From: Pyropia yezoensis
Taxonomy: Eukaryota; Rhodophyta; Bangiophyceae; Bangiales; Bangiaceae
Direction of reading: 5' to 3'
Length of the DNA stretch: 64,000 nucleotides
NCBI GenBank assembly: GCA_009829735.1
Contig: CM020618.1
Span: forward strand, 19,639,346 to 19,703,345
In this document: positions 16,909-52,931 of the stretch, piece after piece
Layout of the letters: each line of letters begins with the position of its first letter
Position numbering within the stretch: the first letter of the stretch is position 1
Position numbers and translations under genes: made by a program
Notes under the pieces: generated by a model
Databases searched by the model: none
Seen by the model: the letters and a program-made list of their open reading frames with translations, nothing else
Told to the model about the DNA's origin: nothing

Positions 16909-16911
16909 CTC

Positions 16912-17971
16912 TTACACATTTCCCGTGCTCGGCCGGGTACTATCGTCCGGGATATCCGGGAGAGGAGGTGCCTCCTCGACTGCCAGCACTCCTCCTGGAG
17001 CTTGCTGCCTACCGGGTGCCGGGCCTCTGGCGGGATACCCACCTATGGATGCCTTGCGTTGCGCCGCTGCCCGTCGAGACTCCTCTGGGATGAGCGGGCA
17101 TGAGGACACCCAGTGTTGGGGGTCTCCGCACAGCATGCATCCGGACGTGCCGGCCGTCCCGGGCGTCCGCGTCGGGTTGGCTCTACAGGTCCGGTTGCCT
17201 TCCTCGGGCGCCCGAGTGCCTGCCCCTTGGAAGGCCTTGGGTCCCGGTGCCAACCGGAACATGGACTCCCCCAGCCGGTTGGTTCTACCAGCAATGTGCG
17301 GAGATGCCTCCGAACGCACCGCCCATGTCGGTAGGGGTTGGTGGGGGATACCCGTAACCGGGGCATACCCCGTAGTCCGCACATACGGGACACGCCGGCC
17401 CGCTCCCTCGTTGACCTGGAACTGGGTCCCAGCCGGGGCGATGTACACTACCGTACCATGCTCATCAATCACCGGCGTCGCCGGTAGCAACAGGTGGCCC
17501 TGTTGGTCGACTAGAGGTTCATCCTCACCCGTAGGGGTATGTTCGGTCGCCACCAGTACGGGTGCGGCCTTACGCTCCACATTCTCTGGCCTCGGTACCG
17601 GGGTAAGACTGGGCTTGCCTCCCTCACCCTTGGGCTTCGGGGCCAAGACTCATTTCGGGTGTAGCACCCGGTAGGCGCCCCCTAGGGACTTGCACATATG
17701 CATCAGTCGACTGAAGTTCGTCCGAGCCGTATTGGCTCCCCGTGCGGATATCCACACATAGTTGGGTACTCCGGCGAACAGGATGGCCCGTAGCTCCCCT
17801 TCGCCGAGAAGCTTCCCCAGCTCGTAGTCGAGCTCTTGAATCCGGCGTCCAAACATCCCCTCATCCTCCCAGGACTGGGCGGTGGCGGTGCGAAGGGCCC
17901 GATAGTGGTCTTCGCACTTGTCCTCACTGAGGTAGCTGCTAAGCAGCTCCTTCAATATCCCACAGTAGCCC
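16912..17971 (-). pseudogene. gag: gag of copy 1a, 5' truncated
   Basis: It corresponds to the C-terminal half of gag in copy 1b. A CCHC zinc knuckle (CMLCGDPQHWVSSC) is intact. The region matching ILKELLSSYLSE is the last recognisable part before similarity ends at about 17971. A stop splits the frame near 17646-17650. Confidence 0.85.
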
Positions 17972-18692: not shown

Positions 18693-18697
18693 GGATT

Positions 18698-19165
18698 TGC
18701 GGCAGTATTGGCCCCCAGGTAGGGGGGCAACACGTGCCATGCAAGGGGCGGCAGGCCACTAGCCTGATCCGTTCCTCCCCTTTCATTTGGGTCCATATTC
18801 CCTAAGTCTGGGATAGTTAGCTTAGTAGTAAATCCAACTTGGATTTGAGGGTTTTCTGCATCATCGTCTTGAATTTTCGTGTGGCCCGGTGGGCAGGTGC
18901 TGGGGTGGGAGATTCTGAGTGGCGAGATTCTGAGGGGACCCTGGGGGGATAAGGGGAGGGACAGCGGGGCTTGGCCCTGCGTCCCCGTCCCGACCAAGAA
19001 ACTGTTGGACCACACACCATCTTCTTGTTTGTCAGTGGGGGGTTTGCCCCACAACAGGGACAGAGTGTGTGCGACTTGCACTTCTTCCGGTTCCCCCGCC
19101 ATGGGAGGCAGCCCTTGTACACCGCCCCAACTTGGGTGCCTCGTGTGCGAGTGGTTTTAGCCACA
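18698..19165 (+). repeat. 5' LTR of family 2
   Basis: It matches 27606-28074 almost throughout and ends TTTTAGCCACA directly before the primer-binding site. Confidence 0.93.
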
Positions 19166-19284: not shown

Positions 19285-21231
19285 ATGGCTAGTTCGGACC
19301 CCCCGTCGTCCGGGGAGTACACAGGTGACTCACGTACTTCAGTGCCTTTGAATACTGGTGAGACTCAGATGGGTTTACCTGGGGTCGCAGAGGAACTAGA
19401 GGTCCCTCAAGCCAGCAGGACTGGAGGTGCGGGCGGGCAACAGGCCACCTCGACTCATTCGGGAGTTCACTCGGGTGACACTTCTGATGTGGGTGGGCCG
19501 AAGTCTGGCCACCGTGTGGTAAACTCAACGGGAACGTCCCAAGGGGTGAGGACTGTCCCCGCGGGTTCCACTCGGGTTGGAGCCAACTTTGGCTTAGAGC
19601 CGTCGCCAACTAGGCCTTCGGAGGACGGCGGACCTCCGTTGGTCGGCGATGGGCTCGCGCACATGCCCCCGGTAGAGACCCCTGAGGAACGTGGTTACCC
19701 CTCAGGTGGGCTCCCGGAGGCGGACCGAGACTCAACTGGAGTCGACAATCCAGTCCTCGCGGAAACTGTCCGTCGGGAGGCGACCAATGTGTTGCGGCAG
19801 ACTTTGCCGGACCTGGTGGTCACGATGACGAATACTATTCTGAATCAGATTGTGGCGAGTTTGCCAGATGGCCTTAATGTCCAGACCGGATCGGGGCTTT
19901 CGAGCCCGCAGGCGCAGGGGGAATCCCTCCTTGAGCCTATCTCAGGTCACCCCGAACAGGGGGCGACACCTGTGACTCCCAACGAGGGAGCCGCACCATA
20001 CTCGGTGGGGCGTACGCCCGTCACGGGGGAGCTTTCCCCGGAAACGCCGGCGGCTACACCAAGCGCGCCGCGCCAGACTACAGGCACTGAGGGTCAACTC
20101 ACCCCAGTGCCACAGCGGCTGTTCTCTCAACGTGAGGTGCCGCCCAAGATCCAGGTAGCCAACCCGGTCTACCAGAGGATCTTTGACTGCGAGACCTACG
20201 CCCTCCACAACAAGTCGGTGGCGTATGGTCCTGTCCAGGCCCGAGCCATGGGCCGTGCCAAGAAGAATGCACTTCACTCTTTTGGGCACAAAGCGGAAGG
20301 GGATGGAACTCCCCCCCTCCGTGTCTTTGAGTTTTTACGTCGTTTCACAAAAGCCTGTGACGACAATGCCATAAGTGAAGGCATGGCTTTCTATATGCTA
20401 CAGGAGTTTACGAAGGGCGACATGCGGACAGAACTTATGTCCGTCATGCCCAGCTCCTCAAGTGGAGGCGCTGGTGAGGTGACGCCCTATTTGGAGCTCG
20501 TCAACTGGTTGTTGAGAGCCATGGTGGATGAGGCAGCGTTGGCTTCTCAAGTTGAGGTGTTTACGCGAGCCCATCAGGAAGAGGCGGAGGACGAGTTGTC
20601 CTTTGCGGAGCGAGTTCGTAAGCTTAACAATCTTTGTGGGTTTCTTCATCCACAAGCTGTGGTGAAGAGTCGGTCTGTGGAGGGACTCCATTGGTCAGTC
20701 CGGATGGAGACCCGGGAGCATAACACTGCCCGGGCGACCCTGGCCGAGTTGGCTAGGTTCGCTTACCGCAGAGGTGAGGCCTATCGCAAGTTGCGGGAGG
20801 AACAACGCCAGGAGCGTCAGGCCGAGTTGGCCAAGGAACGTAAGGAGGCGCGCCAGGCCAGAGAGCTGAGGGAGGCGCGCCGAATCCGCAAGGAGAGGGT
20901 AGTAGCTGCCGTGGGAACTTCCCAGGGTATCCCTTCGTCTTCCCCAGTCGGGAAGACCCCTCCGGGAACTGACAATCGGTGTTGGAACTCCAACTCCGAT
21001 GGACACTGGGCATATGATTGCCCCAAGTTGAGTGAACGCATCCAACAACTTGTTCGGAATGCGAGTAAGAAGTCGGCTACGAACGAAGTACGGTCACGCC
21101 GCGAGGGTGGGTCTCGACCGGTCGTCGCGGTCGCCACACCCTCGGCGGAGGAGGCGGACACGTCGTCCTCGGACTCGTCGTCTTCCCCTTCGCCCTCAGA
21201 TTCGGACGCCAAGTCGGCGGGAAACGAATGA
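19285..21231 (+). CDS. gag: gag of family 2
   Basis: This encodes the capsid-like polyprotein that packages element RNA. The ATG at 19285 is the first in frame. A long Ser/Thr/Pro-rich N-terminus is followed by a helical capsid-like region (about residues 290-480) and an Arg/Glu-rich coil. The zinc knuckle is at C566-x2-S569-x4-H574-x4-C579, with Ser in place of the second Cys, so this copy should bind zinc poorly. An acidic Ser-rich tail ends at a TGA that overlaps the pol ATG (ATGA at 21228). Confidence 0.88.
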   Translation: MASSDPPSSGEYTGDSRTSVPLNTGETQMGLPGVAEELEVPQASRTGGAGGQQATSTHSGVHSGDTSDVGGPKSGHRVVNSTGTSQGVRTVPAGSTRVGANFGLEPSPTRPSEDGGPPLVGDGLAHMPPVETPEERGYPSGGLPEADRDSTGVDNPVLAETVRREATNVLRQTLPDLVVTMTNTILNQIVASLPDGLNVQTGSGLSSPQAQGESLLEPISGHPEQGATPVTPNEGAAPYSVGRTPVTGELSPETPAATPSAPRQTTGTEGQLTPVPQRLFSQREVPPKIQVANPVYQRIFDCETYALHNKSVAYGPVQARAMGRAKKNALHSFGHKAEGDGTPPLRVFEFLRRFTKACDDNAISEGMAFYMLQEFTKGDMRTELMSVMPSSSSGGAGEVTPYLELVNWLLRAMVDEAALASQVEVFTRAHQEEAEDELSFAERVRKLNNLCGFLHPQAVVKSRSVEGLHWSVRMETREHNTARATLAELARFAYRRGEAYRKLREEQRQERQAELAKERKEARQARELREARRIRKERVVAAVGTSQGIPSSSPVGKTPPGTDNRCWNSNSDGHWAYDCPKLSERIQQLVRNASKKSATNEVRSRREGGSRPVVAVATPSAEEADTSSSDSSSSPSPSDSDAKSAGNE

Positions 21232-24200
21232 CCGTTGGAGCTGGCAGTCCGAAGCTCACAACGGCAGCCTCGGCCAAGTGGGTCAAGAGGACAAACCAAC
21301 CGTGCCGGATACTACGGCGACCTAAGGGAGTCCGCCCACCTCGGGTAGGACTCCCCAAGAACGTAAACCCACGTCGGGTGATCGCGGTGCTGACGGGTGA
21401 GAACTTCCAGGTGGCTGGACGGGTGCAACTTGTCCCCGGCCGTGCCACCTGTGCCCGTATCGTACTTGATAGTGGGTCAGGAGCCTCCTTGATACGCAAG
21501 TCGCTATTACCAAAGGAGATGAAGCTCCAACGCTGGAGGTCTAAAGCTGACCATCTGATCGATATCAATGGTGGGGTACTTCCCATCGTTGGTGCCGTGA
21601 CCCTACCAACTAGGTTGGGGACCCATGAGGTCGACGTGACCTGTGGAGTAGTTAAGAATATATCGGTACCCCTGCTTCTGGGTACCCCTTATGTCGTAAC
21701 ACAAGTGCCTTTGATTTGTGGCCCTGAGTATTGGGTCAAGTTGATGAATGGGGAGACTATCCCCATCCTTGGCAAGGGAAAGTCTGTGGCTCCTGTGACA
21801 GTCTCACAGTCGAAGCCTGTTTGCTCTGTGAGGGACGGGTGTACTGCTACCCTGCGTTTAGCCCGTAAAGTCACGTTGCCCCCCAACTCGGTGGCGCACG
21901 TTGACGTTGTAACTGATTATACGGGGAACGGGTTGGTGCACCCTCACCCCCGTCTTGCTCGCAAGCACCAAGTGCATTTTGCCCTTGGCACGATGGACTC
22001 CAAAGCCGGAGTCCCGTGGAGGATCCAGGTTATGAACCTGAGCTCGTCGCCCAAGTACTTCAAGTCGGGCGCCAAGTTCGGCTATATCGACCAACATGAG
22101 GGACAGGTAGTAGCGGTCACCCTCAACGCGGGCGCGAGTAGCGACCCGAAGTCCGGAAAGGAGAAGCACCAAGCCAAGTCGGCCGCCTCTCCTCGGCCCC
22201 AGGAGAACATGGAGGGTGTTCCGCCCAGGTTGAGGGTTCAAGTTGAACGCCTCTTGGACCAATATCACAGGTTGTGGGATGGTCAACTGGGACTCATGAG
22301 AGCCACCCAACACCGGATCGAGTTGAAGCCCGGTGCGCCCCCTATACGCCAACAACCGTATAGGGGAGGACCCCGTTCAAGGGCCCTCGTTAAGGAGAAA
22401 GTTGCTCGCATGGAGGCCCTCGATGTGATCGAGGCCAGCAACGCCGAGTGAGCGAGTCCGGTGGTTCTCGTCCCCAAAGTTGATGGGACCCCACGGTTCT
22501 GTATCGACTACAGTAAACTCAACGAGAGCACGGTGAAGGACAGTTATCCCCTACATAGGATGGATGACTGTCTGGACTCTCTGGGGGAGGCAAACGTGTT
22601 CTCTGCCCTGGACTGTAACGCGGGGTACTGGCAAATTCCCATTGCCCCGGAGGACAGGCATAAAACTACCTTTGCCTGTCACTGTGGTACCTACCAGTGC
22701 AAGCGCCTACCGTTTGGACTGTGCAACGCGCCGGCAACTTTCCCGCGCGCTAGGGCATCATTCTGGCCGGAGTACGGTGGCTGATCTGTCTCGTGTACCT
22801 AAACGATATTATTGTGTTCTCCCGAAGTCCGGAGGAACACATTGGCCATCTTGGCCAGGTGTTCAAGCTACTTGCTGACGCCGGTGTGTCACTGAAGGCG
22901 AGTAAGTGCCACCTCTTCACTCAAGAGGTGGAATACTTGGGATATGTTGTCCGTCCGGGGCGCCTCAGTGTCAACGAGAAGAACTTCAGGGCCATTCGCA
23001 AGGCTCAGTACCCCCGGACCCAGACCCAGATGAGGAGCTTCCTCGGGATGTGTAGCTTGTACCGACGTTTCACCAACGGCTTCGCCAAGGTGGCGAAGCC
23101 GTTGAATGAGCTAGTTAGCTTATCGCTACCGAAGGACCTGCCTCCGCCAAGTCGGGTGGAGCAGGAATCCTTTGAGACTCTTCGGGACCTTCTGCTGAAG
23201 CCTCCCATCTTGGCTATTCCCAGGTTGGGAGGCCACTACATCCTGGACGTGGATGCTGGCTACGACCAACTTGGTTGTGTGTTGCTTCAGCAGCAGCCGG
23301 ACAAGGAGTACTTGCCGGTAGGATACTTCAGCAAAGGGCTGAACTCGGCCGAGAAGAACTACGGAGTCACCGAGTTGGAAGGACTCGCAGTGGTGTGGGC
23401 GGTGACGTCACTTCGTCACTACCTAAAGGGTGAGAAGTTCCTCATCCGCAGTGACCACTGCGCGTTGCAGTTCATCTTTAAGACGGATTGTACGAACACT
23501 CGTCTCAACCGGTGGAGGGTGCGACTGGCACCCTTCAACTTTGACATTGAGTACCGACCGGGCCGGCAACATGCCCTAGCCGATGGCCTTTCTCGGGTAC
23601 CTACCGAGGGGCTGGACACTAACCCAGTCGATGAGGATATCCCCATAGTGGGGGTAGTCATGCGCTCGGGTCAGGCGTTGAATCCCGAGGCGCCAGGGAA
23701 CAAGAAGTACTTGCCCCTGTCCCTGGACGAAGTGGTGAAGGCCCAGGCCGAGGATCCCTTCTGCAAGTCGCAGAGGGATACACTGGATACAGTGGCGGAG
23801 ACGCGGTTCTTTCTCGGAGACGATGGCCTCCTCATGAGGAGGGGGGTATTCCAGGGGACCGAACAACTTGTCGTCCCCGCATTCCTCAAGGACAGTATTC
23901 TTGAAAGGGAGCATAACGCTCCCACAGGTGGGCACCTGGGGTCTAGTAAATTGTACCAGACCCTGAGGACCAGGTATTACTGGCCGTCCATGGTGGTGGA
24001 CATCTACAGTTGGGTGGCTGCCTGCACAAGTTGTGCGCAGAACCATCTGATGGAACGGCGGCCTACTACGGCTATGCTACTGTTCCCGGCCAAGGAGCCC
24101 TTCGCCGCGTTGGCGATGGACATCCTTGGGCCATTGCCAGTGACCGAGGAGGGCCACCAGTACCTCCTGGTCATCTGTGACCGATTCACGAAACTTACGC

Positions 24201-25210
24201 GAGCGGTCCCACTGGCAGAAATCACGGCCATGTCGGTCGTGTCAGCCTTCCTAGATCACTGGGTTGCCGCGTATGGCATTCCGGATAGTACACTATCGGA
24301 CAATGGACCGCAATTTGCGTCTGTACTGTTTCAGGGAGTGCTGGATATGTTGGGGGTTCAGGCAAACTATGCCACCCCCTACCACCCACAAACTAATGGG
24401 CAGGTGGAGCGCTTCAACAAAACTATTGTTCGGCAGCTGCGCCACTATGTGAGTGAGCACGTGAAAACGTGGGACCAATACATTTCTATTCTTACTACTG
24501 CCTACAATTCGCAGGTTCACTCATCTACCGGGGAAGTACCCCTCGCATTTGTGACCCTCCGTCGCGTGCGGTCTATTGCCGTGCGGCGGCCGCTCCCAAC
24601 TAGGGAGGATGGTGGCAGTACGCCTACTCCTACTGAGAGTAAGGCGGAGTTCGCTTCTAGGCTTGAAAAACTCATCTCTAAAGTCAGGGCTGAGATGGAC
24701 AAAGCACAAAAGCGCTACAAGCGTACCTTTGACAAAAAGGTGCGCAATGCTAAGCATGTCCCCGAGCAGGGTGACTGGGTATTGGTGCACTCACACACCC
24801 CAACTGGGGGTAAGTTGGTATTCCAGACGAAGGGGCCGTACCAGGTCCTTCGTACTGATGGGCGGCGCTTCACCATCGAAAGTGACGATGGGGTCCGCAC
24901 CATAAACGGACAGGACGTGGTCAAAGTTGCACCACCGCCTGCAGGCGACCCAGCTTGGGCGCGGGCGCTGGAAGCGTGGCGCCTCCCCTCGCTGCCTGCG
25001 GCCAAACAGGGCCCGCAGGAGTGCGTGTTCGATAAGTTCATCGACCACGGCCGGGATGAGGACACTCACCGCCTCATGTTGAGGGTGCGTTGGTTCGGCT
25101 ACAAAGCCAAGGATGATACGTGGGAGTATGTGGAGGGCCTTTCCGCTGAGAAGGTCCGGGCATACTGTGCCCGGAATGAAGTTGACCCTAACAGCCCCCC
25201 CTCAACGTGA
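21228..25210 (+). pseudogene. pol: pol of family 2: protease, RT, RNase H, integrase, chromodomain, broken
   Basis: The protease motif is LDSGSG at about residue 81. A TGA at 22449-22451 stands at the Trp that normally precedes ASPVVLVPK in RT. One base is lost near 22752 (ATGGGC-like context now AGGGC), changing the frame. The RT active site reads YLND, not YLDD. RNase H (DVDAGYDQLG), the integrase HHCC finger and the MDILG, SDNG and VERF motifs look intact. The chromodomain (VRWFGYKAKDDTWEYVEGL) is canonical. This copy cannot make active RT. Confidence 0.92.
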
Positions 25211-25321: not shown

Positions 25322-27265
25322 CTAGGCATGCATGCTAGACTCTCCAAGCCCACGGCCCTCGCCCCCACGTGGAGGCGAGCGGCGAGACCCACGGCGATAT
25401 CGCTCCCCACCAGTCGGCGGGGCCGGCGGCTCCAAGTCGGAACCGTCGCGCCTCTCACGGTCGCGCAAGTGGCGACGACCGCGGCTGCCCTTCCGCTTAG
25501 TCTTACGCGCAAGTTGGCGACGCAGACGCCGGACCGACTCCGACTCTGACGGAGTAGAGGACTCCGAGACGGAGTAAGACAACTCGTCTTCCGACACGGA
25601 GGGAGAGCACCGGGAGCGTCGGCGACAACGGCGAGGAGGCGAGTATGCCCGGCTCGCGCGACGTTTGCCACGCCCATGTGGGGCTGGCTGGGGCATAATA
25701 GCCCCAATGCGAGCCAACTCGGCCGTCATAAGCTCCGCCACCGACTCGCAACTCGCGGTCGCCACTGCTGTGCGGACGCGCTCCTCACGTTGAGGAGTCT
25801 CGGAAGTTTGAAGGGTTGCGGTCGACGCGGCCAACCAGGATGTGGTGCGCACCAACGTGGTGATCATCATCTCTGAGCTCAGAGGCGTGGCCGGTAACAC
25901 CAAATTGGGGTATACCGTCAGGAGGGTGGCCCCCAAGTTGGGGGACACCGGGGTGGACGACTCAACGGCCACGTTAATCGGGATGTCCCCGTGCGGCTGG
26001 TAGGGGACAGGAGGAAGCGGAGGGGCACGCCGAGGTGGCGGTGGCCGGGTGTAACTGCGAACCCGACTTGGGGCCCCCGCAGTGGGTTGAGTCATATGGT
26101 CATCATGTGAGGGCACGGCCATAACTATGGCCTTGTCCGGGGGTGGCGCAGTGTGGCGATCCACCGCCGGGGCATACGGGTAGTCCCTGATGCCCAACCC
26201 CTCTCGTAGTACCACACGGCCGTCGTGAAGTTCACGAGCGACCCACACGAACTGGCGAAGTGCGCCATCGTCCTTGGGTCCACGAGTGGGGCGGCGCAAC
26301 TTGTGCTCGATGCTCTCCCACTCGATAAACTTGTGGAGGCGAAGCATCTCCTCAAGTAGAGCGAGTTGTCCTGATGAGCACCCCTCAGCAACTAGCTGAG
26401 GGGTGAGCTGTTCCAAACCTTGGATAAGCCGGAGAAGGAGATGCCAGAGCATCCCCCGCCGCTGAACACAAGACACCCAGGTCGATATGACCTCGAGGAG
26501 CCACTGGGTGGCCAACATGGCCCACACCAGGTGATCAGGGCCAGCCGTCAACATGACGGAGCCGAAGTGGTCAAGCAACCGTGGCAGCAACGCCGGGAAC
26601 CCGTAGGGGACCTCAACTTGAGGCCACCACTCGGGCTTCTTCGGGTAGTACTGCTCCTTACTGGCAGCAGACTGCTGAGAAGACTCAAGTTGAGCCGAGG
26701 TCACCAAGTAGGGACCTCGCCGGAAGTCCTTCTCCATCCGCACATCAAAGTGATGAGTGTGCGGATCGGCCTCGTGAAGGTACGGGGGGCGAGTTGCCAC
26801 CGCGTCCCAAGTAAAGGTCGGCAAGTCGCCGGGACCCGGGATAGTTCCCCCGCGGTCCATCATGGCCTTGGCCCGCTGTACGTCTTCGACCTCCTCGTCG
26901 TCCAGGAAGGCAAACTGGTCCGTCCTGAAGCCGGCAGGGAACCCGACCCTACGGGGATACTTCTCCCGTAGGCGGTCCCATACCCGACCCATCGCTATGC
27001 CAAGTCGGCCACAGCGAAGAACAGTCAACCCCTCCTCATAGAGAGGCCAAGCGGGGTAAGACCACCGCCCCAAGGCCTCACGCGGGACAACTTGTCCCGC
27101 CTCCGGGGGAGATCCCGCCGTCAGCCCAAAGCCGGGTGACGCGGGAGTTCCATCCCCCGGAGCGATCGCAGAGCCCCCGCAGGAAGTCCCGGCGGGCGCT
27201 GCACCGTAGGAGGTGTCCTCCATACGTTCATCGAGGGAGTCCGTCTCCACCCCCGGGGACGCCAT
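25322..27265 (-). CDS. Antisense gene of family 2, intact
   Basis: On the strand opposite gag-pol, between the pol stop and the 3' LTR, an uninterrupted frame of 647 codons runs from the ATG at 27265; the frame is open upstream to 27436 without another ATG. The N-terminus is Gly/Pro-rich. The middle holds a helical core with LLDHFGSV, CVQRRGMLWHLL and GLGI blocks, alignable to the family 1 antisense protein. The C-terminus is rich in Arg/Ser (for example SPPRRCRRRSRCS), which could act in nuclear targeting or nucleic-acid binding. No known family is recognised. Its frame is whole although pol in the same copy is dead. Confidence 0.7.
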   Translation of the reverse strand: MASPGVETDSLDERMEDTSYGAAPAGTSCGGSAIAPGDGTPASPGFGLTAGSPPEAGQVVPREALGRWSYPAWPLYEEGLTVLRCGRLGIAMGRVWDRLREKYPRRVGFPAGFRTDQFAFLDDEEVEDVQRAKAMMDRGGTIPGPGDLPTFTWDAVATRPPYLHEADPHTHHFDVRMEKDFRRGPYLVTSAQLESSQQSAASKEQYYPKKPEWWPQVEVPYGFPALLPRLLDHFGSVMLTAGPDHLVWAMLATQWLLEVISTWVSCVQRRGMLWHLLLRLIQGLEQLTPQLVAEGCSSGQLALLEEMLRLHKFIEWESIEHKLRRPTRGPKDDGALRQFVWVARELHDGRVVLREGLGIRDYPYAPAVDRHTAPPPDKAIVMAVPSHDDHMTQPTAGAPSRVRSYTRPPPPRRAPPLPPVPYQPHGDIPINVAVESSTPVSPNLGATLLTVYPNLVLPATPLSSEMMITTLVRTTSWLAASTATLQTSETPQREERVRTAVATASCESVAELMTAELARIGAIMPQPAPHGRGKRRASRAYSPPRRCRRRSRCSPSVSEDELSYSVSESSTPSESESVRRLRRQLARKTKRKGSRGRRHLRDRERRDGSDLEPPAPPTGGERYRRGSRRSPPRGGEGRGLGESSMHA

Positions 27266-27605: not shown

Positions 27606-28074
27606 TGTGGCAGTATTGGCCCCCAGGTAGGGGGGCAACATGTGCCATGCAAGGGGCGGCAGGCCACTAGCCTGATTCGTTCCTCCCCATTCATTTGGGT
27701 CCATATTCCCTAAGTTTGGGATAGTTAGCTTAGTAGTAAATCCAACTTGGATTTGAGGGTTTTCTGCATTTATCGTCTTGAATTTTCGTGTGGCCCGGTG
27801 GGCAGGTGCTGGGGTGGGAGATTCTGAGTGGCGAGATTCTGAGGGGACCCTGGGGGGATAAGGGGAGGGACAGCGGGGCTTGGCCCTGCGTCCCCGTCCC
27901 GACCAAGAAACTGTTGGACCACACACCATCTTCTTGTTTGTCAGTGGGGGGTTTGCCCCACAACAGGGACAGAGTGTGTGCGACTTGCACTTCTTCCGGT
28001 TCCCCCGCCACGGGAGGCAGCCCTTGTACACCGCCCCAACTTGGGTCCCGCGTGTGCGAGTGGTTTTTGCCACA
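27606..28074 (+). repeat. 3' LTR of family 2
   Basis: It begins TGTGGCAG, ends TTTTTGCCACA, and is followed by the target duplication GGATT. Confidence 0.94.
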
Positions 28075-28079
28075 GGATT

Positions 28080-41252: not shown

Positions 41253-42051
41253 TTAGATGGCCTCCATGTAAGGCCCAAGAAGAGCTTCGCGGTCCTTCCA
41301 GACGTGCGCGGCGATGTCATGGCAAAGAGATTGATGTTCAAGAGCACTTGTAGTCGCTGCCCTGGCTGCGAGGGAGCGGGCATACCAGCCCTCGGGAGGC
41401 GCAAGCGCCGCTTCCATGACGACAGGAGGGTGACCGTGCGAGGCGATCACGGGTAGAGGAGCTGGACCACAGCGTGCTTGACGATCCGGGGAGGCTCTGT
41501 CCCCATGAGCGCCCCTTACAACACCGGCAGAACTGCCAGATGGGTCACGACCCCCAGCGGGAGCTGCGCCACCTCCCCCGCCGTCTCCCTCTCCAGCAGA
41601 TGCGCCCAATGGAAATGCGGCCGGGACACGACCCCCGGCCGCCGTGCGTGAGCGCCAAAGAAATCCATCTCGACGCTCTCGGATGACCATGTTGTGCAAG
41701 ATCGCTAGGGCCCGACCGGTGGCAATCATCCGAGTCACAGTCGAGAAACGCGAGGGGTATAGTGCAATGTGAAAGCGATTCGTCAGCACAGCAAACACAC
41801 GCTCAACGTCCTTCCTCAGAGCTTCTTGCAGCCTGTTGTATGTGCGCTGTTGCGGTGTCACCGCGACGGCAAAGGGTCGCGCAAATATCGGGTACTGCGG
41901 GTAAACACCGTCTGCTAGGTAGTACAGCAATCGGCGTATGCAGCCGTTGAGCACATACTCAAACCGGTCCGGCGGCCACGCCCCGGTCGTGATCTCGTGA
42001 AACAGGGGCGACTGCCTCAGCACGTTCAGATCGTTGTTGCTCTCAGCACAG
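41253..42051 (-). pseudogene. PIF/Harbinger-type DDE transposase, 3' half
   Basis: C-terminal half of the gene whose 5' half is at 52932-53779. It carries the SxNDLNVL...SPLF segment, the second catalytic Asp in LADGVYP (D330 in pre-insertion numbering) and the catalytic Glu in KDVERVF (E366), spaced D-x35-E. It is cut from its start by the family 1 element at 42052. Confidence 0.88.
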
Positions 42052-42414
42052 TGTAGCAATATGGTTGGCCGTATTGTGACCCTAATATTAGGGGGGCTAC
42101 TTCTAATCCTTGGCTTTCAATTTGATAGTCTGTACTGGTCACGGTATCTATAAGTTACGTATGATCAGAGGGACTTGCATCTTGGGGTGGAGGGTAGTTA
42201 GTAGTGTCTCCGAGGGTTTATAACGAGGGGGCCGGCGGCGAATCCACCGCCGGCCAAGGTAGAACAATAAACCCCTCCCATTTGGGCTCCCATCTTGGTC
42301 CCGTGGCTTGCGCTCCAAGGACAGCAACCTTGGCCTCCCGGTGACGTTGGTGCCGATCCCCCTTGGTGAGTGTTCCCTGAGAGTGGACGTGCGACGGATA
42401 CCTATTGTGCTACA
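42052..42414 (+). repeat. 5' LTR of copy 1b
   Basis: Begins TGTAGCA and ends TGCTACA, perfect inverse ends. Confidence 0.97.
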
Positions 42415-42639: not shown

Positions 42640-44823
42640 ATGTCTACCCAAGAGACGGGGAACGTTCAAGATGACGGATCGGCGTCGACGCCGACTCCGG
42701 AGGTGACTACGGGAACCGGGATCGGGAACCCGATCGACAACATTGAGACGCCAATGCTTTCCGGTGCCGGATCGACGTTTGGCACGGCTCGGACGGCAGG
42801 AGGCGGGGGCCCGCCTCAACTGTCATCGACCGACCTCACTCCGCCGCCTCCTTCACCAGGGGATTCCCTGATGGCATCATTGGCCCGCATCGAGGCCCGG
42901 TTTTCCGGACTCGACGCTCGTCAAGAGCGGACGGAGGACGCAATGGCAGTGTTGATGTCAACACGCCACACGACGGGACCCCGTCGTGTTCCTCCCACAC
43001 CGGTACGGTTTGAACCGGCCGGACTACTTTCGGAGTCCACCGGGGTCGACCCCGGCGCAGCAACTCCCGGACAACCCCCGGACACAATGGGGTATGGATC
43101 CGACTCGTCGGCAGAGTTGGAACGGAGTCACACGGAGCGATACGCTCGGAGCACCCGAAGCGGACTCCGCGGACACGACCCGGCGGATACTTACGCCGGT
43201 GGAGAGTCGGTTATCGGGGGAGGGGGTACCCTCTTACAGTATCCCCACGACGAAGGAGGCCAGGCAACTCGGGTTCCCGAGGTGCCGACGCCTGAAGTAC
43301 CCTCTTCAGTGGTGGAAGCTATGACCGCGCAGGTAACTGCGAGTTTACTGAAGCGGATGGAGTCCGATGAGTTTGCTCATCAACTGGCTAAGCGACTGGA
43401 TATCCAGGACGCTGACACGGAGATCGTCAAAGAGGTCTTCCGGTCGGTTCTTACTCCGGAACGTTACCGTTTGGAGGACCGCTCTACCACCGTATCGGAA
43501 TCGATGCGTAATACGTCGCACCGAGCGATTCGCTCTATGCAGACCCTTATGAAGGGAGTCCCTATGTTCGGGGGCCCCAACGGACGCCCGTTGGCAGTCA
43601 TCGGCTTCTTGACTAGCTTCAAGGCAGCCGCGGACAAGGCCCTCGTTAACGAGGGGCTGGCCCTGGAGATCCTCCCGTTCTTTGTTGACGAACGGGTGCG
43701 AGGCATCCTTCGCCAGGCGTCCCCGATGCCGGGAATGAGGGTTGCGGCCACCCCCATGGATTACCGTGGGATTCTCAAGGAGCTGCTGAGCAGTTACCTC
43801 AGTGAGCACAAGTGCGAGGACCACTACCGCGCCCTGCGCACTGCCACCGCCCAGAGCTGGGAGGATGAGGAGATGTTCGGACGACGGATTCAAGAGCTCG
43901 ACTACGAGCTGGGGAAGCTCCTCGGAGAAGGGGAGCTACGGGCCATCCTGTTCGCAGGAGTACCCAACTACGTACGGATATCCGCACGGGGCGCCAACAC
44001 GGCACTGACGAACTTCAGTCGACTGATGCATATGTGCAAGTCCCTGGGGGACGCCTACCGGGTGCTTCACCCGGGGTGTGCTCTTGCCTTAAAGCCCAAG
44101 GGTGAGGGGAGCAAGCTCACTCTTACCCCGGTACCAAGGCAAGATAAGGTGGAACGTAAGGCCGCACCAGTACTGGTGGCTACCGATTACGCCCCCACTG
44201 GCGAGGAGGAGCCACTGGTTGACCAGCAGGGCCACCTGCTGTTACCGGCTACGCCGGTGATTGTTGAGCAAGGTACGGTAGCGTACATCGCTCCGGCGGG
44301 GACCCAGTTCCAGGTCAGCGAGGGCACGGGACGTCGCGTCCCGTACGTACGGACTACGGGGTACTCCCCGGTGACGGGTAACCCTCACCAACCCTTGCCA
44401 ACATGGGCGGTGCGCACGGAGGCACCTCCGCAGATTGCGGGCCGACCCAACCGGTTGGGGGAGTCCATGTTCCGGTTGACCCAAGGACCCAAGGCCTACC
44501 AGGGAGCAGGCACTCGGGCGCCCGAGGGAGGAAACCGCAGCTACGGGGCTACCCCGATGCGAACGCAAGGGGGGACCGGCACGTCCGGATGTATGTTGTG
44601 TGGGGATCCCCAGCACTGGGTGTCTTCCTGCCCACTCATCCCCGAGGAGTCTCGGCGGGCAGCGGCGCAACGCAAGGCATCCACCAAGGGGTATCCCGCC
44701 AGAGCACCCGGACCCGCACCGGGTAGGCAGCCAGCTCCAGGTGGAGTACTGGCCGTCGAGGAGGCACCTCCTCAGCCGGATGTCCCGGCGGACAGCACCC
44801 TACCCAGGGCGGGAAACGAGTAA
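42640..44823 (+). CDS. gag: gag of copy 1b
   Basis: Capsid-like polyprotein of 727 residues from the ATG at 42640. A disordered Thr/Pro-rich N-terminus is followed by a helical capsid region and one CCHC zinc knuckle (CMLCGDPQHWVSSC) near the C-terminus, with all four ligands present. The stop TAA lies 8 nt before the pol ATG. No fusion or clear shift site joins it to pol, so pol is probably made by reinitiation or from another RNA. Confidence 0.93.
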   Translation: MSTQETGNVQDDGSASTPTPEVTTGTGIGNPIDNIETPMLSGAGSTFGTARTAGGGGPPQLSSTDLTPPPPSPGDSLMASLARIEARFSGLDARQERTEDAMAVLMSTRHTTGPRRVPPTPVRFEPAGLLSESTGVDPGAATPGQPPDTMGYGSDSSAELERSHTERYARSTRSGLRGHDPADTYAGGESVIGGGGTLLQYPHDEGGQATRVPEVPTPEVPSSVVEAMTAQVTASLLKRMESDEFAHQLAKRLDIQDADTEIVKEVFRSVLTPERYRLEDRSTTVSESMRNTSHRAIRSMQTLMKGVPMFGGPNGRPLAVIGFLTSFKAAADKALVNEGLALEILPFFVDERVRGILRQASPMPGMRVAATPMDYRGILKELLSSYLSEHKCEDHYRALRTATAQSWEDEEMFGRRIQELDYELGKLLGEGELRAILFAGVPNYVRISARGANTALTNFSRLMHMCKSLGDAYRVLHPGCALALKPKGEGSKLTLTPVPRQDKVERKAAPVLVATDYAPTGEEEPLVDQQGHLLLPATPVIVEQGTVAYIAPAGTQFQVSEGTGRRVPYVRTTGYSPVTGNPHQPLPTWAVRTEAPPQIAGRPNRLGESMFRLTQGPKAYQGAGTRAPEGGNRSYGATPMRTQGGTGTSGCMLCGDPQHWVSSCPLIPEESRRAAAQRKASTKGYPARAPGPAPGRQPAPGGVLAVEEAPPQPDVPADSTLPRAGNE

Positions 44824-44831
44824 GAGGAAGG

Positions 44832-47800
44832 ATGACCGGGGGGCGCTGGGGTAACCCAAGCAAGTCACCCCGGAGTACCGCGGGGAAAGCCCCACGGCGA
44901 GCGCGTTTGAGCCGTCGCCGCATCAATCCCCGGGTACACCTTCCGGCCCCGACGACACGGAGTCAGGGGAAAGATGAGAATTCCCCGATAACGGGAGGCG
45001 AGGACGGGATGCCCCGTCACGTTGAACCAGCCAAGGGCCCTGTCCAGGATGCCCGAGGAACACCGGATATCGGTGTAGGACATGTGCTGTTTACCTTGGA
45101 GAACTTCAAGGTATCAGCCACACTGGGGGTTGACCCGCAGTCGACACGATCGTACTACCCTGTACTGGATACAGGGGCTGGACCTAACCTGATCCGGAAG
45201 GATACCCTCCCGGACAAGTGGCTCCCGCGAGTCAGAGTTGCTCGGGGACCCACGATCAAGGATGCGAATGGTCGTCTCATTCGTACGACCGCAGCGATGT
45301 CGCTGCGGGTTACCATCGGGGAACTCACCACGGAAGTCGACTTCCTGGTGTGTGAGACCCTATCGGTGCCCTGCATACTGGGGTGCACCTTCATCAACGT
45401 TCACGTGGATGCAATCCGGCCAGGCCGGAGGACCGTCGAGCTTCAAGAAGCCGACGGGACGAAGCGAGGACATACGGCTATCGTCAGGGACCTGACGCTA
45501 CAAGGGAGCCACGTTAACGTGGCTGAGGTGTACGCAAGCGTCGAACCGAAGACACTTCGGTTGGCCAAGCGAACTCGCTTTGAGCCGTTGTCGGAGACAG
45601 TCCTCCCGGTTAACTGCGACCTCGCAGGCATCTGCAGAGTCCGGTCCAACCTGCGGACGTACAAGCGCCATGGGTTGACCATGGCCAACGGTCTCTTAGA
45701 CCTCCCAGCAGGAGGGTCGTCGCTCCTTGTGATGGCGAACTATCGCCGTAAGGCAGTCACCCTCCCGAAGGGAACTATCCTCGGGATTGCCGAGCTCTAC
45801 GAAGGAGATATCCTTACCCCTGACAAGGAAGGTCAAGTGGAACCACTTGAGGTGCTGGCGGTCGCCGAGACCGCCGAGCGACAGCAACCCGATGACGGGA
45901 AGCCTCACCCATCGGCGGCCCCGGCGGACATGCCGCCAAAGGACCAAGAAGCACTGGAGGCCCTGGCCGAGGCTGACCTCGACCACCTTCCCCCTTCGGT
46001 AGCCGAAGGGGTACGACGGATGCTAAGAAAGCATGACGTCATGTGGACAGGCGGGGCCTTGGGTACCATTGGGGCAACCCAACATCGTATAGACCTGGTA
46101 CCAGGCGCACGCCCCGCCCGGTCACAACCGCACCGAGCGGGACCTATGCAACGAGAGATCGTTGATGGAGAAGTGAAGAGGATGAGCGAAGCAAAGGTGA
46201 TACGACCTTCGATGTCAGAGTGGGGTGCCCCAGTCGTCATCGTACCGAAGAAGGATCAAACTCCTCGGTTCTGCATCGATTATCGACGCCTCAACTTGGT
46301 TACCAAGAAAGACTCATACCCTTTACCAAGGATGGATGAATGCATCGACTCCCTGGGGGAAGCCACGGTGTTTACCACCATCGACTGCAATGCCGGATAC
46401 TGGCAGATCCCAGTGGCGGACGAGGACATCCCCAAGACGGCGTTCGTCTGTCACAGTGGAGTGTACGAGTTCCTAAGGATGCCCTTCGGATTGTCCAACG
46501 CCCCCGCTACATTCCAGCGGGCTACCGACATTATACTGTCGGGGGTGAAGTGGCGTAACTGCCTAGTGTACCTCGATGACGTCATCGTCTTCTCGCGTAA
46601 CATGGATGACCATGTGCAACATGTTGACGAGGTACTCACCCTCTTGAGGAACGCCGGGGTAACCCTGCGTCTGAAGAAGTGCGCCTTCTTCCAACAGACG
46701 GTCGAGTATCTGGGCCACCAGATAACCCCTGGTAAACTAGGGGTACTCGAAGCCAATACCCGGGCACTCCGGGATGCTCGGTTCCCTAACACCCAGACGC
46801 AGCTCAAGAGCCTTCTGGGAATGTGCAACGTATACCGACGGTTCGTCAAGAACTTCGCTCGGATAGCTAAACCGTTAACGGTTCTTACGAGCAGTACCTT
46901 ACCCAAGGTACTCCAACCCCCTTGGCCTAGCGAAGAGGAGGCATTCGAGTCGCCGAAGCGCGCCCTGCTATCCCCACCCGTCTATGCGTTACCGCACAGA
47001 CGGGGTACCTTCGTCATCGATGTCGATGCGTGCGACACCCAAGTGGGATGCACCCTGCTACAGGGAGAGACGTTGATCGGTTCCGATAACGTTATCCCGG
47101 ATCTACGTCCGGTAGGGTACTTCAGCCGGACACTCAACCCGGCTGAGCGTAACTATAGTGCCACCGAGCGTGAGTGCCTCGGAGTTATATGGGCAGTGCA
47201 ACTGCTCCGTCCATACCTGGAGGGCTCCAGGTTCATCGTGAGGTCCGACCACGAACCCCTACGATGGCTCCTCAACCTTGGTGACAAGGATTCCGACAGC
47301 CATGGGAGGCTAGCCCGATGGAGGCTGAAGATGGCCGAGCACGACTACCGTACCGTGTATAAGGCTGGGTCAACCCACCATCTCGGAGACGCATTGTCTC
47401 GACTCGACACCCCGAGCGGGGATACCCGCCCGGTGGACGAGGACATCCCGGTGGTACCGGTCTGCATGGTGGGTAACGCTACCCAAGGTATGGTTGACCA
47501 TACCATGCCACACCGAGCATGCCCACTGACCCTCGCGGACTTCCGCGAGGCACAAGCCAATGACGACGACTGTAGACGCCATCGCGCTAACCTCCTGGCC
47601 GGTACGGCCGGCATCTTCTCCGAGAATGAAGACGGACTCATGTACCGGCGGGCACCCGCCGATGGACGACAGCAAGTCGTGGTTCCCGTGTCCTTACGGC
47701 AAGCCGTCATGGAACGAGAACACGAGAACCCTACAGCCGGACACCCGGGGGGTTCACGTATGTTCGCAGCAATGCGAAGGTTCTTCTACTGGCCAGCAAT

Positions 47801-48998
47801 GGCCGTCGACGTGGTCGACCACGTAAGGGGATGCCACCCCTGTGCACGTAACCGCATGAGTCTACATAGGCAGGCGTCTGCCATGAAACTGTTCCCACCT
47901 GATGGGCCCAACGAGCAGGTCGCTATCGACATACTCGGGCCACTTCCGGTAACGGAAGAAGGGAACAGGTACATCCTGGTCATGTCAGACCGCTTCACTA
48001 AGCTGTCACGAGCGGCAGCCATCCCGAATGATACGGCATACACGATTATAAACGCAGTGGTTGACCACTGGATCAGTGCATACGGAGTCATGAAGCAACT
48101 CCTCTCCAACAACGGAGCAAACCTGACGTCAGCATTCTGCACTAAGGTCATGGGCATGTTCGGGATCGAACCACGTCGGGCATCCGACTACCACCCGCAG
48201 ACCAACGGACAGGTGGAGCGGTTCAACCGCACCATCGTCAAGATGCTACAGTGCTACGTGGCCGAGCACACGAACACTTGGGACAGGCTCCTGTCCGTAC
48301 TTACCCTGGCATACAATGCCAGGCCACATCGGAGCACGAACATAGCCCCTCTAGAGTGGGTCATGCCACTAGGAGTCGGTAACCTGACGCTGCCGCCAGG
48401 CAGGTGCACTCGGTATGATACACCGAGAGGCCGACCAGCCGAACGTATACACCTAGCTTGGTTGGCCAAGCTATCGTGGATGATACCGAAACTCAAGGGC
48501 GCCCTTGACCGTACACAACTTCGATACAAGAAGAACTTCGACGCCCGACTACGGGTGCGCAACGCTACCCTGATGACAGGTGACTGGGTCTACATCAGAC
48601 ACCAGAAGTTCCGGGGGAACGAGCTCATGCAACCGATCAAGGGACCGTACCAGATTCTCCACAGAGATGACCACTCTGTTAGCTTACACTCCGATACGGA
48701 GATCCAACGCATCAGTGAGAATGATGTCACACCAGCGCCGAAGCCAGAACATCCTCAGCCGGTACCGGCTGGGTTGCTACATGAAGCGCTTACCACCCAC
48801 CGGTCGGATGCCACGGTGGGACCAGATGGAATCCCATACCAGGTGGAGAGCATCGTCGGACATACCGACCCAGATCTACCAGAACCCTGGTACGTCAAGG
48901 TAATGTGGGTCGGTTACGACTCACCCACCGGGGAACAAGCGGCGAATATACCCCGCCAACTACTCATGCCTTACATGAGGCGAGGGCGCCTCCTGTAA
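44832..48998 (+). CDS. pol: pol of copy 1b: protease, RT, RNase H, integrase, chromodomain
   Basis: A single open frame of 1388 residues. Protease D113 lies in DTGAG; the RT box YLDD has D582 and D583; the RNase H Asp is D732; the integrase zinc finger has H964 or H971 with C1001 and C1004. The integrase core has D1033 and E1129, but the middle catalytic Asp of the D,D35E triad is Asn (N1093, SNNG; copy 1a has SDNG), so integration activity should be lost. The last 55 residues form a chromodomain (YQVESIVGH...WVGYDSP), expected to guide insertion to marked chromatin. Confidence 0.95.
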   Translation: MTGGRWGNPSKSPRSTAGKAPRRARLSRRRINPRVHLPAPTTRSQGKDENSPITGGEDGMPRHVEPAKGPVQDARGTPDIGVGHVLFTLENFKVSATLGVDPQSTRSYYPVLDTGAGPNLIRKDTLPDKWLPRVRVARGPTIKDANGRLIRTTAAMSLRVTIGELTTEVDFLVCETLSVPCILGCTFINVHVDAIRPGRRTVELQEADGTKRGHTAIVRDLTLQGSHVNVAEVYASVEPKTLRLAKRTRFEPLSETVLPVNCDLAGICRVRSNLRTYKRHGLTMANGLLDLPAGGSSLLVMANYRRKAVTLPKGTILGIAELYEGDILTPDKEGQVEPLEVLAVAETAERQQPDDGKPHPSAAPADMPPKDQEALEALAEADLDHLPPSVAEGVRRMLRKHDVMWTGGALGTIGATQHRIDLVPGARPARSQPHRAGPMQREIVDGEVKRMSEAKVIRPSMSEWGAPVVIVPKKDQTPRFCIDYRRLNLVTKKDSYPLPRMDECIDSLGEATVFTTIDCNAGYWQIPVADEDIPKTAFVCHSGVYEFLRMPFGLSNAPATFQRATDIILSGVKWRNCLVYLDDVIVFSRNMDDHVQHVDEVLTLLRNAGVTLRLKKCAFFQQTVEYLGHQITPGKLGVLEANTRALRDARFPNTQTQLKSLLGMCNVYRRFVKNFARIAKPLTVLTSSTLPKVLQPPWPSEEEAFESPKRALLSPPVYALPHRRGTFVIDVDACDTQVGCTLLQGETLIGSDNVIPDLRPVGYFSRTLNPAERNYSATERECLGVIWAVQLLRPYLEGSRFIVRSDHEPLRWLLNLGDKDSDSHGRLARWRLKMAEHDYRTVYKAGSTHHLGDALSRLDTPSGDTRPVDEDIPVVPVCMVGNATQGMVDHTMPHRACPLTLADFREAQANDDDCRRHRANLLAGTAGIFSENEDGLMYRRAPADGRQQVVVPVSLRQAVMEREHENPTAGHPGGSRMFAAMRRFFYWPAMAVDVVDHVRGCHPCARNRMSLHRQASAMKLFPPDGPNEQVAIDILGPLPVTEEGNRYILVMSDRFTKLSRAAAIPNDTAYTIINAVVDHWISAYGVMKQLLSNNGANLTSAFCTKVMGMFGIEPRRASDYHPQTNGQVERFNRTIVKMLQCYVAEHTNTWDRLLSVLTLAYNARPHRSTNIAPLEWVMPLGVGNLTLPPGRCTRYDTPRGRPAERIHLAWLAKLSWMIPKLKGALDRTQLRYKKNFDARLRVRNATLMTGDWVYIRHQKFRGNELMQPIKGPYQILHRDDHSVSLHSDTEIQRISENDVTPAPKPEHPQPVPAGLLHEALTTHRSDATVGPDGIPYQVESIVGHTDPDLPEPWYVKVMWVGYDSPTGEQAANIPRQLLMPYMRRGRLL

Positions 48999-49448: not shown

Positions 49449-51977
49449 TCAGAAGGGGTTACCCCCGCCAGCAGAAGGGGGCCAGTCACGCGTCGTCGCG
49501 TACACTTCCGCACTCCAACGGTCGGCTATCTCACGCCGGTTGAGCGCCTGAGCTACCTCAGCGCTAAGATGCACCAGAGTGCTGTCACCAGCCTCCACAG
49601 CATCCAGAGCCATCTGTAGGCGGTTGAGCACCCAACCGAGGCAACGCGCGGTACCGACCAGCGCAGCAGCTGGGAGGATGTCCCCCCAGCTAGCCGGAGG
49701 CGCCTCCGCCAACTCACGAGAGAGAAGGGCGTTAACGCCCTCATGCCACAAGCGGGGACCCCCGTCGGGCATGACGGGAGCCGGCGATGCCACCGGAGGG
49801 ACCGGAGCTACAGCCGGAGGAGTGGACACCGCCACTGCCGGAGACGGCGGTAGCTGGTAAGGAGCACGGTACGACCGTGAAGGAGGACCAGACTCCTGGG
49901 CAGAACGCCCACCGGGAACCCGGTGGAGCTCCCCACGACGACGATACGTCTCGCGGCCTGCACCAGTGGAGTCCCACTCACGGCGACGGCGACCCGTGCC
50001 CATAGGAGTCGGGTTACCGAACCAGGGGGTTCCCACCTGGAGAGGGTCGGGCAGAACCACGGGAATACCCAGGCCTGGTACCGACTCGGTGGATGCCCAC
50101 CCCTGGTATCCATCCTCAGCCGAGATAACTCGGCGGATACGTAGCGAGTGACGAGGCAACGGGAGCGTTCCCGGTTGCGCGTCACGGAACGGCGGCAAGG
50201 TCGCCACCGCCGACCAGTTCACGGCATCGTGATCGGCCACGAGCGCAGTCAGCTCACGGGTTAACCCCGCCCCAGTAGCAATGGCGTCAACGCCTAGCTC
50301 CCCAAGGTGCCGATGGACACCCGTCGGAAGATGGAACAGCCGACCCTGTCGGCGGGCCGACAACAGGAAGGAAGAGACCTGCCCGAGGGTAACCTCGAGG
50401 GTGAAGACACCCTGCAGCACATGCGTGGGCCGAGCGGCCAGCACACTGCCGAAGTAGCGCAGGCAAGGACCGGTGTCAAACCGGAAAGCCGGGGCGGGCT
50501 CCCACCCTTCTTGCCACCCAGGCGGGCGCAACAGAGTGTACACGGGAGCACGAGCGTTACCGGTCTGCAACGCGCACGTTATATCCGTGCGGAATGGGTC
50601 CGCCATGACACCATGGTTTCGACGCCAGCTGGAAGCTGACTTCAAGCCACCCATGGTCGGGAAGGGCGGCGTCAGCCACAGATACGGGGGATCCCCCGGG
50701 TAGTAGTCCAAACCGGGATACCGGTTGGTACCAGGCACAAGCTGCCCGAAGGCCACAGGGGTCTGGGTAGCAGCCACCCCGCGGGCACCCGCAGGGTAAT
50801 CCACCTCCCGCGGCAGCGCGGGGGCAACCAAGTCGCACACCCCAAAAGCGGGGTGCAGAGTAGCCTCAGGCCGCCCGACCCGGGCGCGCCAGAGTTGAGC
50901 ATGCCGGTCGTCCGGCTGGCTGAGTACCCAATGATGCTCGACGCGAACCGCGTCAGGCTGGGCAACCAGTCGAGCCAGCTCCCGCTCCCAACAGGAGTCC
51001 AACGAAACCAGACGGGGGGTACCTCCACGACGGCCCGGCGGGTGGAAGTCCACCCGCATCCGACCGCCTGAGTCCATGGCTTCCTGCACCGTCAGGCTAC
51101 GCACCCGAGCCACCAGCTCGGAGACCGACAACGGGGGGTGTCCCACCGCAGAGGCGGCACCGCCCCGCTCGGAAGCGGTACCGCCACCCGCAGAGGCGAC
51201 GCCGCCACCGACCAGGCCGACGTAGCCGCCCAACGGGGCAACCCGGGCCGGCCCAGGAACAAGCGCCGGCGCCGGCGGAAGCCCAACGGGTAGGTGCACC
51301 GGCGCCGGGGCACGGGGACGAGGAGGAAGAAGTAGGGCGGGCACCCGCCCGGAGTAGCTCCCGGTGTCAACCGCCATGGGGGAAGGAGCGTCTTGACCGC
51401 TCGACGCCCGCGGCACCGCGGGTAGGGTACCGGCGCCGGCACCACCCGTCGACGTCGCCCCCGCCTCGGAAGGGGAAGGCACTTGGACAGCCTCCGGAGC
51501 CGGAGCACCGGCCGTGCGGACACCCGCACCGTCTTGACTCGCCGCACCGGGTGTCGCACCGCCACTACCACCCCCGTCAACGTCGGGATCGCCTTGAGGA
51601 ATCCCCGTCCGGACACCCGGACCACCTTGCCCAGCCGGAGTCGGCCGGGAATCGCCACTTCCGCCGTAGGGCGGGCCATCTTGGGGTAGCTACGGCGGGC
51701 CGGCATCGGCACCAGGCTCCATCCGGGTAGCCGGAAGGGAAGGGGTAGAGGCAGCCACGCGCGGTTGACCGGCGGGTTGACCCCCGACCGACGGCACCGT
51801 CGTGCCGCTGCACACGGACGACAGTCCTCCGGCCGACACACGGACGGACGCCACAGGCTCGTCGTCTTCCGACGAGCTCGCCCCGTAACGCGCGGCAGGA
51901 CCGACGGGCGCGTCGTCCTCCATCTCCTCCCCAATCAGGAGGTCTTCCTCCTCCCCAAGCACCTGGGGATAGGACAT
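49449..51977 (-). pseudogene. Antisense gene of family 1 (copy 1b), one nonsense codon
   Basis: It lies on the strand opposite gag-pol, between pol and the 3' LTR. The ATG at 51977 aligns with that of copy 1a (both followed by PQV-x-G and an acidic patch with DLL). A TAG at 51690-51692 is the only interruption; the rest is open to the stop at 49449. The core includes ELVARVRSLTVQEAMDSGGR, a WERELARLVAQP-like block and LRYFGSVLA. The C-terminus has Trp where copy 1a has TGA. The two copies differ in stops but share frame and domain order. Function unknown. Confidence 0.75.
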
Positions 51978-52551
51978 GATAACGGGTGGCAGAGTCCCCC
52001 GCGCCCACAAGCCGTCGACGGCTACGATCCGGTACGGTGTGACAACCGGGACGAGCCAGGGAAGCGCGGGCACCCGCGCTTATGACCACAAACAGCCACG
52101 AGAAGCGCCGCAAGTGCGCGGGTCAACCCGCGCCCCACGGGGCTATGAACGCGCTCCACCCAGGCACCTGGGCGGGATGGGCCACACCCCCGTACGGGGC
52201 AACCACGAGGGGGTCACCCCGAACGCGCCCCCGCGAAAAGCGGGCAGCGGCCGCCCCCATTCACTCGATAACACGAGAGGGGCCCCCCTACCACCAGACG
52301 CCTGGTGGCGGATCCGCTTGCACCACCCCTCGGAAAGGGGGGTCGTGAACAGAAACCCGCATCGGGAATCTAACGGTCCGGAAAACGGATCGTGTGTGTA
52401 CCACACAAAGGGGGGCACCCCCCTCAGACAACCCCGAAAAGGGGTGTCTGTCGCGACAGGGCGCAAAGCCCCACCCGACTGGTAAACGGTCACGCGACCC
52501 ACTTACATTCGGTAACCCGAATGCAACTCGACCCGAGGACGGGCCGAATCT

Positions 52552-52563
52552 AAGGGGGGGATA
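52552..52563 (+). promoter_or_regulatory. Polypurine tract of copy 1b
   Basis: AAGGGGGGGATA directly before the 3' LTR. Confidence 0.75.
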
Positions 52564-52926
52564 TGTAGCAATATGGTTGGCCGTATTGTGACCCTAATAT
52601 TAGGGGGGCTACTTCTAACCCTTGGCTTTCAATTTGATAGTCTGTACTGGTCACGGTATCTATAAGTTACGTATGACCAGAGGGACTTGCATCTTGGGGT
52701 GGAGGGTAGTTAGTAGTGTCTCCGAGGGTTTATAACGAGGGGGCCGGCGGCGAATCCACCGCCGGCCAAGGTAGAACAATAAACCCCTCCCATTTGGGCT
52801 CCCATCTTGGTCCCGTGGCTTGTGCTCCAAGGACAGCAACCTTGGCCTCCCGGTGACGTTGGTGGCGATCCCCCTTGGTGAGTGTTCCCTGAGAGTGGAC
52901 GTGCGACGGATACCTATTGTGCTACA
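52564..52926 (+). repeat. 3' LTR of copy 1b
   Basis: Same ends as the 5' LTR, with four single-base differences. Followed by CACAG. Confidence 0.97.
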
Positions 52927-52931
52927 CACAG

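Follow-up and report, generated by a model that had tools for sequence, protein, structure and literature searches.

An antisense open reading frame (ORF) between pol and the 3' LTR is an arrangement known from the plant retrotransposon RIRE2. As described in PMC7264820, the maize Ty3/gypsy element Grande carries GENE23 antisense between pol and the 3' LTR, with a reported promoter ahead of it and a protein located in the nucleus, and the same source lists Boty from Botrytis cinerea as a non-plant LTR retrotransposon with an antisense ORF at this position. According to PMC11963269, the antisense ORFs of Retand encode Transposase_28 (PF04195), are conserved across elements and lie in a long region between pol and the 3' LTR; HBZ of HTLV-1 is an antisense accessory gene with nuclear localisation in the same account, and the antisense promoter of HTLV is placed inside the 3' LTR by PMC7264820. 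The roles of antisense extra ORFs are described as undetermined in PMC7264820, and in PMC6317226 the functionality of extra ORFs in plant retrotransposons is questioned.

We found a gene with this arrangement in the red alga Pyropia yezoensis (nori), the genome of which is reported to consist of repeats by nearly half, with LTR elements predominant (PMC7423979). The gene was present in two Ty3/gypsy families, referred to as family 1 and family 2, within one stretch of 64,000 nucleotides (the window). Compared by description, the nori gene and Grande GENE23 have the same place and strand; the host of Grande is a flowering plant, and the nuclear product reported for GENE23 is only a prediction for nori. 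The Retand ORFs were also alike in place and strand, but PF04195 had no match in the nori antisense proteins in Pfam searches; in addition, Retand is described as a non-chromovirus, whereas nori family 2 had a weak chromodomain match and family 1 a similar tail, a comparison drawn from descriptions, Pfam matches and a tail alignment. The likeness to Boty concerns the arrangement, as known from a mention, and not the proteins. HBZ and the nori gene are both antisense accessory genes of LTR retroelements, although HTLV-1 is a retrovirus and no Pfam domain in the nori proteins links the two, the nori side having basic stretches only. A search of titles and abstract openings in the open-licence literature, with subscription papers outside its scope, returned no red-algal antisense accessory gene. 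Genes of this kind are known; what looks new is the protein, its host group and how strong the evidence for selection is.

Our preferred reading, to which we assign a probability of about 0.65, is that the nori gene belongs to the retrotransposon itself as an accessory gene, antisense to gag-pol and located between pol and the 3' LTR. The window contained two family-1 elements, 1a and 1b (Table 1). Element 1b had the LTRs, the target duplication and the protease-RT-RNase H-integrase order of a Ty3/gypsy element. Element 1a was 5'-truncated; its alignment to 1b stopped at position 17967, and no 5' LTR of 1a was found in the 64-kb window. In both elements, the antisense gene lay opposite gag-pol, between pol and the 3' LTR, and the frames, strands, coordinates and stops (two TGA in 1a, one TAG in 1b) were the same as those given in an earlier sequence-only reading of this DNA. 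We also observed a partial, inverted LTR (8696-8963) adjoining the 3' LTR of 1a. Other features of the window were host-like genes near the elements (55785-56978, 58535-60607 and 177-1637: SPRING1, SHQ1 and an IBR-domain protein), a Tc5/DDE_1 transposase frame neighbouring the family-2 element (28545-29894), a hAT dimerisation domain (6205-7248) and a 520-aa frame (35843-37405), built mostly from a 36-nt repeat within DNA of 76% GC, for which Pfam gave nothing at E <0.01.

Table 1. Features of the two family-1 elements and the family-2 element in the window.
Feature	Coordinates	Strand	Remarks
Antisense gene, 1b	49449..51977	-	843 codons including stop; one private TAG (codon 96; 51690-51692)
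Candidate antisense core promoter, 1b	52062..52084	-	CATAA (-107) into palindrome AAGCGCGGGTGCCCGCGCTT; basis: position and conservation
5' LTR, 1b	42052..42414	+	
gag-like frame, 1b	42640..44823	+	weak zinc knuckle, E 0.07
pol, 1b	44832..48998	+	protease, RT, RNase H, integrase, chromodomain-like tail
3' LTR, 1b	52564..52926	+	98.9% identity with 5' LTR of 1b
Target-site duplication, left of 1b	42047..42051		CACAG (5 bp)
Target-site duplication, right of 1b	52927..52931		CACAG (5 bp)
Antisense gene, 1a	9916..12285	+	790 codons including stop; two private TGA (11989-11991, 12220-12222)
Same candidate promoter block, 1a	9803..9825	+	TATAA (-113) and palindrome
3' LTR, 1a	8964..9326	-	
Remainder of 1a	12660..17967	-	decayed, 5'-truncated; pol and part of gag
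Antisense gene, family 2	25322..27265	-	647 aa, open; core homologous to 1a/1b protein
5' LTR, family 2	18698..19165	+	
3' LTR, family 2	27606..28074	+	97.7%
Target duplication, family 2	18693-18697 and 28075-28079		GGATT
Sense frames, family 2	19285..25210	+	
gag-position frame, family 2	19285-21231	+	no Pfam match
Protease frame, family 2	21228-22451	+	weak, E 0.02
RNase H, integrase, chromodomain frame, family 2	23030-25210	+	

The genome (107.5 Mb, 11 contigs) was searched with the 1b protein, which gave at least 75 matches. Fifty-four loci, one of them 1b itself, were read and joined by 1a from the window; the 55 copies thus obtained are the top-scoring matches of full or nearly full length, and as such a non-random sample. 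In 29 of the 55, the frame ran uninterrupted from the conserved ATG to its stop, which came 17 codons early in one of them. Two further searches revealed, among the matches listed, 92 places of group B (defined below), of which 78 were stop-free, and 130 places, with the matched part stop-free in 127. When the three lists were merged by position, at least about 248 distinct gene places were obtained; the N-terminal part of 1a as the query gave at least 150 matches, which were kept separate from this total. The family is large, 1a and 1b being only two sampled members, and many of its copies are undecayed. The decay proposed in the sequence-only reading holds for 1a and 1b, with their own stops, but is not general, as evident from the open copies and the stop-free group-B places.

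The flanks of the 55 copies placed the gene between pol and the 3' LTR: the 3' end of pol was found in the fetched flank of 51 copies and an LTR in that of 52, none lacked both, and the gene was antisense to pol in all 51 copies with a pol match. Among the matches listed, 34 of 112 integrase places had a gene place downstream, on the opposite strand in 34 of 34; this linkage rests on the matches listed and is not a prevalence per element. An early count of 9 of the 112 integrase places with a gene nearby had pointed to elements without the gene, and we rejected this idea: the count was low because the lists were incomplete, rising to 34 with more lists, and one integrase place unmatched in the lists (L063) was fetched and found to carry the gene, broken by frame changes.

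The copies were divided into group A (22 copies like 1b), group B (24 like 1a) and an intermediate group; L023, L024, L030 and L054 were outside the A and B counts, and L024 was placed in the intermediate group for the exchange comparison. Between groups A and B, the gene core in the antisense frame showed a dN of 0.193 and a dS of 0.736 (dN/dS 0.26), with 0.38 stops per sequence, so that conserved presence in many copies of one family is evident from both this ratio and the number of places. In the other five frames, dN/dS was 1.28, 1.88, 1.05, 0.41 and 1.80, with 7.0-19.6 stops per sequence; the value of 0.41 belonged to the mirror frame on the gag-pol strand, which had 13.6 stops per sequence. 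Constraint was weaker in the N-terminal part (dN/dS 0.58, group A against the 18 unrecombined B copies). The comparison of 1a with 1b suggested in the sequence-only reading gave the same picture over the whole frame, with a dN/dS of 0.315 and 1.5 stops per sequence, whereas the five other frames had 10-22 stops per sequence and ratios of 0.43 (mirror) and 1.22-1.59, and the wider collection of 55 copies that it had also called for confirmed that constraint and stop depletion are specific to this frame. Additionally, the ATG said to be shared by 1a and 1b was aligned across copies, and both sites at which TGA was said to replace Trp in 1a were Trp in 52 of the 54 other copies read. The three stops of 1a and 1b were private, each being found in none of the other copies among the 55. 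Judged from these alignments, a chance open frame is excluded.

The timing of selection was apparent when changes private to one copy were separated from those shared by two or more copies. In group A, private changes had an omega of 0.95, which is near neutral, and included 11 stops, about the neutral number; shared changes had an omega of 0.22 and no stops (Fisher p = 4.5e-11, private against shared), while shared changes in the four frames other than the antisense and mirror frames gave 1.01, 1.36, 1.92 and 2.48. The picture was less clean in group B, where the antisense frame showed 0.48 for private and 0.28 for shared changes (p = 1.3e-3) and private changes were thus partly constrained as well; with so few copies, some changes that were inherited may pass for private ones. 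Integrase, taken as a control with shared meaning three or more copies, behaved alike: group A gave 0.55 for private and 0.03 for shared changes, and group B 0.47 and 0.04. The comparison across copies demonstrates, at the level of codons, purifying selection followed by decay of individual insertions. Near-neutral private changes beside constrained shared changes indicate that selection acted during element mobility and decay came after it; the protein appears to have been needed while the elements multiplied, less stringently than integrase, with each insertion decaying afterwards. The claim of a protein-coding gene that decays after insertion was thereby borne out by group A.

The sequence-only reading had described the gene in one family; 1a and 1b do share it, but a distant homologue was also present in the family-2 element, at the same antisense place as the family-1 gene. 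Pol was split over more than one frame in the family-2 copy of the window and was 44-61% identical to 1b pol in the aligned parts. Upon comparison of the family-1 alignment with the family-2 gene, hhalign gave an E of 2.4e-5, a probability of 75.5% and a score of 48.7 over 180 columns, against maxima of 24.4 in 200 core shuffles and 25.9 in 49 other window frames of at least 250 codons; the link between the two families consists of one region, with an hhalign probability of 71-76%. A C-terminal homology of the two families, suggested by eye in alignment A5, was not supported, its score of 11.2 being reached by 123 of 300 shuffles. A 291-residue piece of the family-2 protein was found at at least 134 places in the genome, none with an internal stop. 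The family-2 window gene was 94% identical to 7 others, with no gap and 114-119 substitutions, distributed over the codon positions as 25 / 23-26 / 64-70 (62-69 synonymous, 49-53 not). The Chromo match of family 2 (E 8.5e-4) reached 19.6 bits, below the Pfam cut-off of 25.1; the family-1 pol tail had no Pfam match and aligned with the family-2 tail at 26% identity, with an E of 2e-18 for that pair alone. A protein search that scored the 8000 candidates with the most shared words gave 16 matches, eight of them hypothetical proteins of Pyropia vietnamensis (42-56% identity) and the other eight ENA or 'lgn' sequences. These protein alignments demonstrate a core common to the two Ty3/gypsy families and the P. 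vietnamensis proteins. The simplest reading is that the gene would be older than the split of families 1 and 2; recombination between the families is a possible alternative source of the common core.

Within family 1, the gene and pol probably had different histories. Between groups A and B (the 18 unrecombined copies), dS was 0.74 in the gene core and 0.31 in integrase; the corresponding values were 0.07 and 0.20 within group A and 0.35 and 0.37 between group A and the intermediate group. Since these ratios are incompatible with a single genealogy, the gene and pol have probably recombined, with alleles exchanged between pol backgrounds. Six of the 24 B copies (L037, L041, L042, L044, L047 and L049) combined an A-like N-terminal part with a B-like rest. 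We also found three diverged versions of the gene, G000:C2:9543317, C2:9532415 and C2:6021275, which were 65%, 64% and 97% identical to P0016, respectively; the first two matches were stop-free and the third had one TGA. Their divergence suggests that these three may be another allelic group.

The 586 nt that separate the gene from the 3' LTR had a mean column identity of 86% in 13 copies and contained a TATA-like box 107 nt (1b) or 113 nt (1a) before the ATG. A separate antisense mRNA would probably start in this conserved region. The upstream region of family 2 (340 nt) had no TATA-like match, so the promoter candidate is not general. Short, different palindromes with perfect stems were also observed, ten at 51978-52563 (1b) and eight at 9327-9915 (1a). 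A count of 18 stems exceeded a shuffle mean of 1.79, yet by merged counts other parts of the elements were equally dense (10 per 586 nt), in stretches in or next to pol that start at 45001-45301, 48701 and 16201; we rejected the array as a special regulatory feature, and palindrome richness may be a trait of the whole element. An excess of G-T over A-C pairs on the antisense strand was likewise not taken as evidence, being 166 to 41 by cells (46 of 55 copies, 9 dropped) and only 34 to 16 per variant.

The protein is laid out as an acidic N-terminus, a conserved core, a basic stretch and a C-terminal segment; the first 60 residues of the proteins carried charges of -11, -13 and -7, with basic stretches later. 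Pfam gave no match at E <0.01 for the antisense proteins, the best being DUF6214 (E 0.014, touched by 2 of 14 members); no relative was found among solved structures at E <0.5, and the fold predicted from alignment A3 (mean pLDDT 31) was too poor for fold comparison. By analogy with what has been proposed for plant antisense ORFs such as Grande GENE23, and with HBZ of HTLV-1, the protein might be a nuclear factor that regulates its own element or counteracts the silencing of it, a role that we propose tentatively and less firmly than the mRNA; no domain backs it, because Pfam and the solved structures gave no match. The same data bear on an env-like function, in which a structural or entry-type protein would work at membranes or within particles, its strand being the one unusual feature. 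The position between pol and the 3' LTR is that of env, and discrete allelic groups swapped between pol backgrounds would suit a recognition protein; however, hydropathy revealed no membrane-spanning segment (highest 19-residue value 1.36-1.54), the Pfam and structure matches offered no backing, and antisense coding would need a separate transcript, all of which makes this function unlikely.

Somewhat less likely still is a host gene captured by transduction and kept with a cellular function. The one long uninterrupted frame of the open copies is consistent with such an origin, as is the GC content at codon position 1, which was 0.75 in the antisense gene and nearer to host-like window frames (0.74 and 0.76) than to gag (0.66) and pol (0.63). 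None of the 55 copies was free of both the pol end and an LTR, though, and no protein match had a cellular name, the matches being hypothetical or unnamed; captured genes are, moreover, usually sense to gag-pol as described in PMC7264820. We consider it very improbable that the antisense RNA alone matters, through silencing or regulation of gag-pol, with the open frame as a by-product: retroelement antisense RNAs can act without a protein according to PMC7264820, and short palindromes abound upstream of the gene, but these are equally dense elsewhere in the element and the amino-acid constraint is frame-specific, with no shared stops. Finally, an overlapping sense-strand gene that imposes the codon pattern, as the low mirror-frame dN/dS and its fall in group A from 1.02 (private) to 0.37 (shared; p = 6.0e-6) might suggest, is refuted by the stop counts, since the mirror frame had 12-17 stops per sequence whether the core or the whole gene was compared, and 6 (group A) and 5 (group B) shared stops, against 0 in the antisense frame.

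With the accessory gene of the nori elements, the antisense arrangement is now seen in red algae too, and the protein involved has no match among curated families. A broader and rather speculative proposal is that it represents an undescribed family of antisense accessory proteins, older than the split of two chromodomain-type Ty3/gypsy families of Bangiales and kept in both, with discrete recombining alleles, like a diversifying regulator or counter-defence factor. If this is true, antisense accessory genes would have an origin here that is independent of flowering plants, fungi and retroviruses. For one case, the evolutionary answer is clean: across many copies, private changes are near neutral and shared changes constrained, a mutation pattern indicating that the protein was useful while the nori elements were mobile. 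A crop alga with a small genome is also a place to look for the antisense transcripts and their product.
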